The notes beneath the pieces were generated by a model that saw only the letters and a list, made by a program, of their open reading frames with translations, was not told where the DNA came from and ran no database searches. A program made the translations under genes and the position numbers. Below are positions 59,734 to 64,000 of a stretch of 64,000 nucleotides of DNA, piece by piece. The DNA is from an uncultured Bacteroidales bacterium. Its GTDB lineage: Bacteria; Bacteroidota; Bacteroidia; Bacteroidales; Bacteroidaceae. The DNA lies in contig CACYGK010000011.1 in NCBI GenBank assembly GCA_902774005.1, positions 45,642 through 109,641 of the forward strand, in the 5' to 3' direction. Within the stretch, counting starts at the first letter, position 1. The number at the start of each line of letters is the position of its first letter.

Positions 59734-59776
59734 AAAATCAGCAACTTAGAAGAAATTCAAGTTGCTGATTTTTTTG
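59734..59776 (+). terminator. Rho-independent terminator after the tRNAs
   Basis: Perfect stem AAAATCAGCAACTT/AAGTTGCTGATTTT with an 11-base loop and T-run. Confidence 0.95.
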
Positions 59777-59779
59777 TTT

Positions 59780-59863
59780 TGCGAAAACAATGCGAAAACA
59801 ATCGGTTTGAGTTCGCCCCCATTTTAAGCAAGTTTTCGCAATCTTATTAGACTGCGAAAACAA
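59780..59863. repeat. Iterated TGCGAAAACAA sites next to tRNA-Met
   Basis: Three identical 11-mers TGCGAAAACAA at 59780-59790, 59791-59801 and 59853-59863, and an inverted match (TTTTCGCAA) at 59833-59841. The arrangement resembles recombinase arm sites or regulator-binding sites at a tRNA-linked insertion point. No integrase gene is visible in the window. Confidence 0.75.
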
Positions 59864-59889: not shown

Positions 59890-60237
59890 CTACAGACCTT
59901 CATTCTCTGAAAAGTATTCCCTTGCTAGGTCAATGGCATCTATTCGGAGAGCTTCGTCCTCTTCTTTCAAGACGGCATACACTCCATCAGCCAGCCAGAG
60001 CGTCATCAGTTCCTTCTCGTCAACCTTATACAGCTCTGCCAACTTGGGAACCTGGTCACGTCTTACACGTCGAGCTCCCAACTCCATTTTGCTGTACATA
60101 GGCATGTCCGTCTCCAGCAATTCTGCTAACTGCCGTTGCTTCAACCCTTGCTCCAGCCTCATTGCCTTAATTTTTGGACCGAACATGCCATAAATTTTTT
60201 TATCCTTCATATTCTTTGTATCGTTGTTAGTCATCAA
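59890..60237 (-). CDS. XRE-family helix-turn-helix regulator
   Basis: A 115-residue protein. Residues about 20-80 form an HTH_3/XRE domain (KIKAMRLEQGLKQRQLAELL, then MYSKMELGARRVRRDQVPKL). The C-terminal part (AVLKEEDEALRIDAIDLARE) is helical and probably dimerises. Such regulators are often found beside DNA-modifying or restriction genes in Bacteroidetes. It lies in the accessory segment after tRNA-Met, on the same strand as the GIY-YIG nuclease and the large PIN protein upstream. Targets unknown; the iterated TGCGAAAACAA sites 30-110 bases past its 3' end are one candidate. Confidence 0.85.
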   Translation of the reverse strand: MMTNNDTKNMKDKKIYGMFGPKIKAMRLEQGLKQRQLAELLETDMPMYSKMELGARRVRRDQVPKLAELYKVDEKELMTLWLADGVYAVLKEEDEALRIDAIDLAREYFSENEGL

Positions 60238-60395
60238 TTAAACTTAAACTTCAGGACTTGTCCCGAGCTTGTCCTGTACTTGTCCTGTACTTGCAGGCTC
60301 ATCCAATCGAGATTGCCACCTCCATTCCTCCGTAGCCCGTACGTATGTACGAGTACCTGTATCCAATCCACCAATAGTAAACTTGTGGTTGTTTG

Positions 60396-61351: not shown

Positions 61352-64000
61352 TCATTTTACCTGATTGTTAATAATCTGTCCAGCATCAATGATGCACTCT
61401 CTTACAAATTGACAGGAGAAATACGGGACTTGGAAATAATCATTTGCGATATTTATGAGGTTTCTTACGTCATCTCGACTATATGCCTTAAATGCCATTG
61501 TAAACATATTCGTGAACGTAACACGGAGCGTATTTATATCTACTTCAGAACCTGCCAATTTTAGAGCAGCACTGACAACTTTATCAAATAAAAAAGGGTT
61601 TTCTTGTAGATTTTGCATAATGTCTACAATCTTATTATCTTCCCTTCTCTTCATCTTTTGGTATTCATTAATAATATATATATCACTCATATCCACACCA
61701 CGAAAAGAGCAGTTAAAAAGGAACTCGGAATATGCTTCAGATGTTCTGGAATTAGAAAATAACTTAACAAATGTTTCAGTAGAAATTATAGAAATACCAG
61801 GTAACATTTTCATTAGCTTAATATCATCAGTAACAAAGAAGCAATTCGGCTTCATGAGCATTGATAGAGAACTGAAGAGCATATCTTTTAAAGGTGTTCT
61901 ATTTCCATTGTCCATTATAGCTAATACCTGATCTGCTATAACATCTTTACAATGATTATCTATCCATCCTAATAAGTTTTTTATATGTTCCTTTGCATCC
62001 GTATCTGCATATTGGCTAAATTGAATTATGTTACCACTCCGTATGGTTTCATACATATCTGCATTTATGTATCGAACGGCAGATTTATACACGCTTTTAA
62101 TATATTCATGTACTATTGTTGTAATCGCCATGTTTCCTGATATTTCATTTTTGGTTGTTACAGAAAATTCAGCAAAGGTAATAATTGTTGGTAAATCTAG
62201 AATAAAAGTCGCATTGCTCGTATCCAATTTACATAGATTGATTTTTTGAATTTCAATTGTACTATTGCTGCAATGAACTTTGAAAGGAGAGAAGAGCAAT
62301 TTATAGTAACTTGATAACATATTTGAGTTATCAACAAGCTGCATTAGAGCAAGTTCCCCCATTTCATATTGCTCATAAGCCTTCTTTTCTCTTTCGATTG
62401 GCGATTCTTGTCCCTGTGACATTTTTTGTAATGCAGCATTTAAACTTTCTACAGGATTATTCATATCAATCTTGAAAAACCTTAGTTCTGGATTACTTCC
62501 ATTCATGGCTTCTCTAATAATATCACCTGTAAGTTTATAATATTTATTATAGATGCCCACAACTATCAATTTGCTGGCTTCATTTCCAATTTCTATTTCT
62601 ATAACATCATCTTTTTTTGCATTCATCATCTTTTTTCCAATTTCACCCTCATGCATTGATGCCCGATAAAAAATGCGTTCTCCATCTTTGTCACATAAAG
62701 CATACAACCCCTCTTTTGCTATATCATATTCTTTACTTGCAAAAGAAGCGATCAATCCTAATGATGCTTCATAATGATAAAAGTTTCTTAATTCAAAATC
62801 ATCAGAACTTTTTGCATTATAATATAGTATCTCCGTTGCGGTTTCTAAATAACCATTCTCTGCAAATGCCTGATATGCCAATTTCACATCCTCGCAATTA
62901 CTATAATACATGCATTTAGCTTTATCTTCAAATCGTTTCAATTCTTCAGGACAAACTCGACCAAGAGTATAAAGATAATTAGCAAAAATACTTACATTAT
63001 CCGAGTGGCGTCGATGTAATTCAGATATAGTTTCCAGAGCATTTTTGTAATCTGCAACCCTACAATCTAATTTATATTCTATTTGCAGTAATTGGTCATC
63101 ACATTCATTGCCTGCTTTCCGGTTTTTTACTAATATCCGATACAAATCGGGCGTTTTTTCTTGCATTCTACTAAGCACTGAAAGAAAAACGCGTTGTTTG
63201 ACATCTACTACATCTTCATTAACAATGGGGCGAAGCATTTCAAAAGCAAGATATGTATTACCGACTTCTGCTAAGATAAGTGCAGCATATGCTTTCATCT
63301 CTTCACATAGGGAATCCGTAGAATTAATGAACTTGTCGACATCTATTTTGATATGACTGAAATAATTGCAAAGCTGTAATAGGACCTCTTTATCTGTGCT
63401 ATTCTCGAATTTGACGTTTGTCAAAGCCGAAAAAGTATCTTTGGAGTTATCAGAATTAATTGAATATGCAATAAATATTGCTTCTTGACTTGCAACTTTC
63501 ATATTACTATCCGATGCCTTTGCTAACGCCCAACGTAAATGTAGTACGTTATGAGTTTGAATAGACATCATAATAGCGAATCGAAGTACATTATTATCTA
63601 TCACTTCACTAATAGATACTAAAGATGCAAAAGCTTCTTCGTACCTTCCTGCTAATAATAGCATAGAAGTCTCTATGAGCTGGAAATACGATTTTTGTTC
63701 CCCATAATCCTTTCTACTGATAGATAAAAACTTATCAACCCATTTTATATTATGGTCGCATATATAATTCCAATAACAATATAGGCTTTTGATAATTGAG
63801 AAACAATCTCTAAGTTCAGTTTTGGAGATATACTCTACAAAAACACTTATAGCATTCTTAGGCTCTTCAAATTTTTTTACGAGCGTTGAGTCAAATGATA
63901 GCGCTAAGAAGTTTCCTAATTTATACCTATAAAAAGTAATAATATAGAGCCAATCGTTAAGATTCGAGAAAGAAAGATTACATGGTATCGTGATATCCTC
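61352..64000 (-). CDS. Large TPR-like / GreA-B-C-like / PIN-like nuclease protein (5' end beyond window)
   Basis: 882 residues are visible; the frame is open to the window edge, so the N-terminus is missing. Visible residues 1-440 are helical repeats of TPR/HEAT style (GRYEEAFASLVSISEV, GYLETATEILYYNAK). Residues about 448-490 resemble the C-terminal domain of GreA/GreB (MHEGEIGKKMMNAKKDDVIE, then IEIGNEASKLIVVGI). Residues about 595-740 look PIN-like: Asp in TFILDLPTI (about 602), Glu in TTIVHEYIK (about 632) and Asp-Asp in CFFVTDDIKL (about 725). A helical C-terminal tail follows. The composition is AT-rich compared with the core genes. A nuclease or RNA-polymerase-associated stress or defence role is an inference; the motifs are what is seen. 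Confidence 0.75.
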   Translation of the reverse strand, partial: EDITIPCNLSFSNLNDWLYIITFYRYKLGNFLALSFDSTLVKKFEEPKNAISVFVEYISKTELRDCFSIIKSLYCYWNYICDHNIKWVDKFLSISRKDYGEQKSYFQLIETSMLLLAGRYEEAFASLVSISEVIDNNVLRFAIMMSIQTHNVLHLRWALAKASDSNMKVASQEAIFIAYSINSDNSKDTFSALTNVKFENSTDKEVLLQLCNYFSHIKIDVDKFINSTDSLCEEMKAYAALILAEVGNTYLAFEMLRPIVNEDVVDVKQRVFLSVLSRMQEKTPDLYRILVKNRKAGNECDDQLLQIEYKLDCRVADYKNALETISELHRRHSDNVSIFANYLYTLGRVCPEELKRFEDKAKCMYYSNCEDVKLAYQAFAENGYLETATEILYYNAKSSDDFELRNFYHYEASLGLIASFASKEYDIAKEGLYALCDKDGERIFYRASMHEGEIGKKMMNAKKDDVIEIEIGNEASKLIVVGIYNKYYKLTGDIIREAMNGSNPELRFFKIDMNNPVESLNAALQKMSQGQESPIEREKKAYEQYEMGELALMQLVDNSNMLSSYYKLLFSPFKVHCSNSTIEIQKINLCKLDTSNATFILDLPTIITFAEFSVTTKNEISGNMAITTIVHEYIKSVYKSAVRYINADMYETIRSGNIIQFSQYADTDAKEHIKNLLGWIDNHCKDVIADQVLAIMDNGNRTPLKDMLFSSLSMLMKPNCFFVTDDIKLMKMLPGISIISTETFVKLFSNSRTSEAYSEFLFNCSFRGVDMSDIYIINEYQKMKRREDNKIVDIMQNLQENPFLFDKVVSAALKLAGSEVDINTLRVTFTNMFTMAFKAYSRDDVRNLINIANDYFQVPYFSCQFVRECIIDAGQIINNQVK

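Follow-up and report, generated by a model that had tools for sequence, protein, structure and literature searches.

A divergent TPR-GreAB-C-PIN family protein at a contig end of an uncultured Bacteroidales bacterium, a probable conflict factor

The DNA analysed here, a stretch of 64,000 nucleotides referred to below as the window, ends in an open frame of 882 residues for which a sequence-only reading had proposed TPR-like repeats, a Gre-factor-like C-domain and a PIN-like nuclease in one protein. The question raised by this locus is whether these parts are really present and, if so, what such a protein might do. The features of the locus are listed in the table below. The frame is the C-terminal part of a longer protein: the contig stops at the last base of the window (64000; contig position 109641), so the 5' end of the gene is missing. 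A search of the bacterium's own genome with the N-terminal 331 residues of the closest homologue gave no match, a weak test as the assembly is approximately 80% complete.

The gene had been described as AT-rich and located beyond tRNA genes with iterated sites. Indeed, the GC content of 61352-64000 is 32.7%, compared with 46.2% across positions 1-59000 of the window, and is below that of every equal-length stretch sampled there in steps of 100 (minimum 35.9%). Low GC beyond the tRNA-Gln and tRNA-Met genes is as expected of an acquired island, to which the HTH regulator gene possibly belongs as well. The iterated sites were located between the tRNA genes and this regulator gene: within 59734-59863, TGCGAAAACAA occurs in three exact copies (59780, 59791 and 59853), together with several inverted repeats, of which one, at 59734-59772, is perfect over 14 bases. 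Just upstream of the regulator gene, at 60256-60293, a 16-base direct repeat occurs in three imperfect copies at 11-base spacing and is possibly its operator.

Table. Features of the locus, in window coordinates
Feature	Coordinates	Strand	Evidence
TPR-GreC-PIN gene, C-terminal 882 aa	61352..64000	-	Length of four full relatives (G291, G280, G374, G348), 1056-1195 aa (n = 4)
TPR-like helical repeat array, residues 1-421	62738..64000	-	AlphaFold2 helices, Foldseek, TPR families in relatives
Gre-C-like domain, residues 424-500	62501..62731	-	hhalign to GreA, shuffles, PDB profile search
Low-confidence linker, residues 501-595	62216..62500	-	pLDDT mostly <50
PIN-like domain, residues 596-752	61745..62215	-	Collinear hhalign with PF20698 members; PF20698 in relatives
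C-terminal helical tail, residues 753-882	61355..61744	-	AlphaFold2 model
GIY-YIG + DUF4357 protein, 275 aa	60515..61342	-	PF14267, PF01541 (sub-cut-off), PADLOC PDC-S14
Cro/C1-type HTH regulator	59890..60237	-	PF13560, E 6.1e-10

The 882-residue protein gave no match at E 1 in Pfam, PADLOC or NCBIfam. Relatives were found in 5 of 399 genomes of the same taxonomic family, its own included, with identities to the window protein of 49% in Xylanibacter rarus 109 (G291), 35% in G280, 23% in G374 and 20% in G348; divergence is strong, with identities to the window copy of 18-49% in a further comparison. The Pfam family PF20698 is the "PIN domain associated with the TPR-GreAB-C-PIN system". Its curated cut-off is 27.8 bits. 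The window copy gives no match to it, none of the four close relatives matches it as a whole protein, and no match to it was found in the bacterium's own genome.

The link to PF20698 was established through more distant homologues. A five-protein profile of the window family matched 9 of 392 genomes of the phylum. Two of these are strong new matches (G696, E 1.1e-31; G600, E 6.4e-31); the own genome itself (G000) was set aside, as were six genomes whose matches are short and weak (E 9e-6 to 6e-4, G747 among them). Using PF20698 against 296 phylum genomes, seven matched, five of them over the cut-off, including G600. In this 1123-residue bridge homologue, the PF20698 match (45.2-49.1 bits) falls inside the match to the window-family profile; the G696 protein, at 25.3 bits, is slightly below the cut-off. 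We compared the five-protein profile, built without G600 and G696, with three independent PF20698 members (G565, G464 and G518) using hhalign. The untrimmed profile aligned over 373 columns (E 6.5e-4, probability 28%). Trimmed to the Gre and PIN parts, it aligned over 309 collinear columns (E 9.4e-5, probability 59%) with a score of 41.1, which none of 40 column shuffles reached (best 21.4). Trimming of this profile and of the Gre profile described below was decided after the untrimmed results were known. The homology of the window copy to the PF20698 family is thus carried by the G600 bridge and hhalign and not by the Pfam score itself. On these sequence comparisons, the window protein is almost certainly a member of the TPR-GreAB-C-PIN family by descent, and the proposed assignment of TPR, Gre-C and PIN parts is backed via the homologues.

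Searches of wider collections returned few relatives. Single-sequence scans of genome and viral contig collections gave none and are weak negatives, since X. rarus itself escaped the genome-contig scan although an alignment scan of that collection recovered it. The alignment scan found three loci, those of G291, G374 and G348, in the genome contigs and no relative in the viral contigs; tblastn against plasmids and phages also gave none.

An AlphaFold2 model of the 882-residue protein, based on a four-row alignment, had a mean pLDDT of 72.8 and a pTM of 0.43. Residues 11-421 are helical, 433-484 are beta-rich, and strands and helices alternate at 598-748, followed by helices to 881. The longest stretches with pLDDT <50 are residues 503-592 and 690-708. 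In a Foldseek search of the PDB with the whole model, the best 50 of 1249 matches (E <=10) are, judged by their titles, mainly helical-repeat proteins, including Ctr9, Ski3 and PPR proteins. Several relatives match TPR families, in agreement with the TPR-like repeats proposed for the window copy. The C-terminal helical tail is absent from the 1056-residue relative G374. Model topology, the GreA profile match and the alignment to PF20698 members together place the TPR array, the Gre-C-like domain and the PIN-like domain in this order in one protein.

In GreA and GreB, a coiled coil precedes the C-terminal domain (PF01272), whereas in the window protein a helical array occupies this place. Neither an N-terminal coiled coil nor a PF01272 match over the curated score was found in the window copy. 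The Gre-like part was recognised by profile comparison. Specifically, when the five-protein profile was compared with six GreA sequences in hhalign, residues 452-484 fell on the GreA C-terminal motif over 33 columns (E 2.1e-4, probability 46%). This unprompted comparison arrived at the same register as the sequence-only reading. The GreA sequences were those of six of nine loci that passed a motif and length filter; the GreA of the own genome was among the three left out. The trimmed Gre profile scored 37.7 against GreA (E 3.5e-5), and none of 100 column shuffles reached this value (best 23.4). In a search of 177,635 distinct PDB sequences with the Gre-segment profile, the top four places were taken by Gfh1 and a GreA/Gfh1 chimera (E 0.013-0.087). 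The whole-family profile had just two matches at E <=1, and both were Gfh1 (E 0.39 and 0.76). Trigger factor, which contains an FKBP-like domain, appeared in the search with the Gre segment at E 1.2, far weaker than Gfh1. PF01272 matched the Gre fragment of one of seven members (E 0.0022), the window copy not matching; with whole proteins, the best relative was G280 (E 0.093, 13.2 bits vs a cut-off of 26.9). The motif is clearest in G280, where it is near consensus; that of the window copy is degenerate and lacks the Pro. The same hhalign comparison of the three PF20698 members with GreA gave no Gre signal (E 0.27).

The degenerate motif of the window copy and the trigger factor match, weak as it is, bear on a different reading of this domain. 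The protein would belong to the same family, and the Gre-C-like unit would be an interaction or sensor fold of the FKBP-like type; sensing of a phage product by the TPR array would then lead the PIN domain to cut tRNA or mRNA freely, with no part played by the polymerase. A relationship of Gre-C to FKBP-like folds is described by Kaur et al. (PMC8195603). The specific Gfh1/GreA register and the near-consensus motif of the G280 homologue speak against this reading, which we regard as possible but the less probable account of the domain.

The PIN-like domain was assessed by its acidic residues, its predicted fold and its similarity to PF20698. The sequence-only reading had proposed an acidic D...E...DD layout. 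The window copy has every such acid (D602, E611, E632, D706, D725 and D726), of which D602, E632, D706, D725 and D726 are candidate acids of the domain. In 11 aligned proteins, position 602 is D in 9 and position 726 is D in 10, while 725 is acidic in 9 and 611 is E in 7. In contrast, 632 is E in only 4 of the 11 and 706 is D in only 2. With two candidate positions varying in this way, some members may have weak catalysis or none.

The strand and helix order of residues 598-748 in the AlphaFold2 model (strands at 598-601, 624-627, 684-687 and 720-723) is compatible with a PIN fold. An LD strand end opens the unit and V-T-D-D follows later, features that resemble PIN/VapC-type RNases by eye. 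It differs from these RNases in the variation of two acids and in matching neither general PIN families nor PIN chains of the PDB. By sequence, no PIN chain of the PDB was matched, and by title none occurs among the best 50 of the 1249 Foldseek matches, a whole-model search that returned helical-repeat proteins and is uninformative on the PIN and Gre parts. In Pfam, the PIN fragment of the window copy gave only sub-cut-off matches to unrelated families. PF20698 matched the PIN fragments of four of seven aligned members at E <=5 (best 9e-13), the window copy not included. The PIN region alone aligned weakly to the PF20698 members (26 columns, E 0.033), with a score of 19.6; none of 60 shuffles reached it, the closest being 17.9.

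The gene neighbourhood was evaluated in the window and at homologue loci. The GIY-YIG nuclease gene proposed as a neighbour is indeed present, on the same strand and 9 bases downstream of the TPR-GreC-PIN gene. Its product matches PF14267 (E 8.9e-18) and PADLOC PDC-S14 (E 6.8e-83), and PF01541 slightly below the cut-off (E 6.6e-4, 20.4 bits vs 22.6). Genes were listed at 11 homologue loci (in part for G374), and proteins picked by eye at G280, G348, G291, G565, G600, G518 and G464 were scanned with PADLOC at E limits of 0.001 in one scan and 1e-5 in the other. Matches were obtained for 16 of 19 proteins, a raw count for this selected set. Defence genes were found beside several relatives (G280, G348, G291, G565 and G600), as had been suggested for checking. 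The neighbours of G280 include a ThsB-type TIR (E 6.9e-49), a caspase (1.7e-20) and a second TIR-like gene (6.1e-7), as well as an AbiJ-like match (9.7e-5), a type I restriction subunit and PDC-S26. The TIR, caspase and second TIR-like genes stand in a row (L009:4864-6817) approximately 1 kb from the family gene, a row that we take to resemble a Thoeris-type set in which a caspase is the effector. G348 has a PDC-M62A/B ATPase and HNH pair, of which the HNH gene overlaps the first part of the TPR-Gre-PIN frame. Directly upstream of the PIN-TPR-GreABC gene of G565, on the same strand (L034:8466-14482), lies a CBASS-type set, made up of a gene for a fused cyclase-E2 protein and one for a phospholipase that the contig end truncates. 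The neighbours of G600 include an Old-like ATPase as well as type I genes for modification and specificity; a helicase (DpdF-like, a broad match), a DUF1848 protein and two proteins without a match neighbour G291. The single neighbours scanned for G518 and G464 gave a weak match (1.8e-6) and no match, respectively.

A possible guide to the part missing from the window copy is given by its two closest full-length homologues, X. rarus and G280. Both have a helical N-terminal module, and their first ~160 residues are 44% identical; a model of the whole X. rarus protein is of low quality (mean pLDDT 61.0, residues 1-166 nearly all <50). A profile of the module from these two proteins matched 4 of the 399 family genomes: X. 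rarus, G280, G229 (E 2.1e-22) and G293 (E 6.0e-20). In G229 and G293, the module lies at or near the start of proteins of 1540 and 1567 residues (L051:2151-6773 and L052:2419-7122) with C-terminal TIR_2 domains over the cut-off (E 2.4e-10 and 5.9e-12) and nSTAND_NTPase5 matches below it (E 1.3e-4 and 4.2e-5). The helical module therefore occurs on two types of protein, TPR-Gre-PIN and NTPase-TIR. A SIR2-like gene (PF13289, E 1.6e-5) adjoins the NTPase-TIR gene of G229.

Using a four-protein module profile, only 2 of 10 full-length family proteins were found to carry the module. In 13 sequences searched, no other ORF of at least 50 residues beyond the two NTPase-TIR proteins has it, and plasmid and viral contig collections gave no match. 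The identity of the module with Pfam NNH2 (PF22734) is unproven: the G293 NTPase-TIR protein gave sub-cut-off matches (E 0.033 and 0.0056), the modules of X. rarus, G280 and G229 gave none, and 4 of 14 controls also gave matches, none over the cut-off. Other N-termini differ. G565 has a Cap4_nuclease match below the cut-off (E 0.0059) and G469 a hydrolase match (PF12697) over it. The N-terminus of the G600 protein itself has no effector match; a 131-residue ORF with only sub-cut-off Pfam matches (L025:11403-11798) lies directly upstream of the gene and may be its separate N-terminal partner.

Together with the variable E and third-acid positions of the PIN-like domain and the TIR and caspase set adjoining the G280 gene, the occurrence of the module on NTPase-TIR proteins is what might be expected if the PIN domain were catalytically weak and the protein mainly sensed a stalled or phage-altered polymerase, signalling to effectors via its N-terminal module. 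We consider this unlikely, as D is retained at 602 and 726 in most members, few full-length family proteins carry the module, and no neighbour ORF (at least 50 residues) of the loci searched, that of G280 included, has it. Finally, housekeeping proteins can also contain Gre or PIN domains, but a housekeeping RNA-decay or transcription factor is highly improbable given a gene that is so rare in the taxonomic family, low in GC, strongly divergent among relatives, adjoined by defence genes in several of them and accompanied by a separate GreA match in its own genome.

The sequence-only reading had tentatively mentioned predicted Gre-C/PIN fusions. This was correct: they were published by Kaur et al. 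in 2021 (PMC8195603) and are in Pfam as PF20698. That paper describes TPR, GreA/B-C and PIN as the constant core of a conflict system, in a rapidly evolving family with a variable N-terminus (effector or EAD domain) and mostly standalone genes, and predicts a polymerase-tethered RNase as the mechanism, which is what the sequence-only reading had guessed. The window protein has the same domain order as the published system. It differs in that it lies under the Pfam model, its recognition depending entirely on G600, G696 and profile comparison, in that its two closest full-length relatives carry a module common to NTPase-TIR proteins, and in having a partner gene 9 bases away. Since architecture and mechanism are already in print, novelty is limited to the divergent clade, the N-terminal module and the gene neighbours. 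Specifically, we describe a Bacteroidota clade scoring below the PF20698 threshold, the module of the two closest full-length homologues, the tight GIY-YIG/DUF4357 pair, and defence genes beside relatives. Current Pfam models report neither the window copy nor any of its four close relatives as whole proteins, so that surveys built on them would miss all five.

Among the titles and abstract beginnings listed for the open-licence literature, we found no experimental test of a TPR-GreAB-C-PIN protein. The available part of the DefensePredictor paper (PMC13092281) reports two PIN systems, one with PIN split between the protein ends and one with a DUF5830 partner, and cites PIN domains validated elsewhere; its two systems are not evidently of the same family as the window protein.

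Based on patchy occurrence (5 of 399 genomes), low GC, PADLOC matches beside relatives and the published prediction (PMC8195603), a role of the window protein in conflict or defence is very probable. The fuller account that we favour, and hold to be moderately likely, is that of a horizontally acquired single-protein conflict factor, probably anti-phage, of the TPR-GreAB-C-PIN family that acts as a polymerase-docked RNase. The modest hhalign probabilities (46% for GreA; 28% untrimmed and 59% trimmed for the PF20698 members) count against it. Its tethered mechanism, taken alone, is a plausible prediction that we hold tentatively. In this mechanism, sensing or scaffolding would fall to the TPR array together with the missing N-terminal region, and the Gre-C-like domain would dock near the secondary channel of RNA polymerase, at the beta' coiled coil. 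The protein would lack the Gre coiled coil, the part that would make the polymerase cleave its own transcript; instead, the PIN domain would act as an RNase on the transcript, extruded or nascent, of a polymerase in use by a phage. The variable N-terminal domain, in the two closest full-length homologues the helical NTPase-TIR-type module, might add a second, cell-limiting response. A more speculative extension, which we think improbable, is a polymerase-borne sensor whose N-terminal adaptor, common to NTPase-TIR receptors, relays an attack on transcription to TIR, caspase or SIR2-type killers, the RNase being the first tier of a two-tier, NLR-like network response.

The X. rarus and G280 proteins are full-length, moderately divergent homologues suited to testing. 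We know of no characterised defence system that uses the Gre docking site as its target point. If the published prediction is true, a defence protein would borrow the Gre docking site on RNA polymerase and thereby bring an RNase to foreign transcripts.
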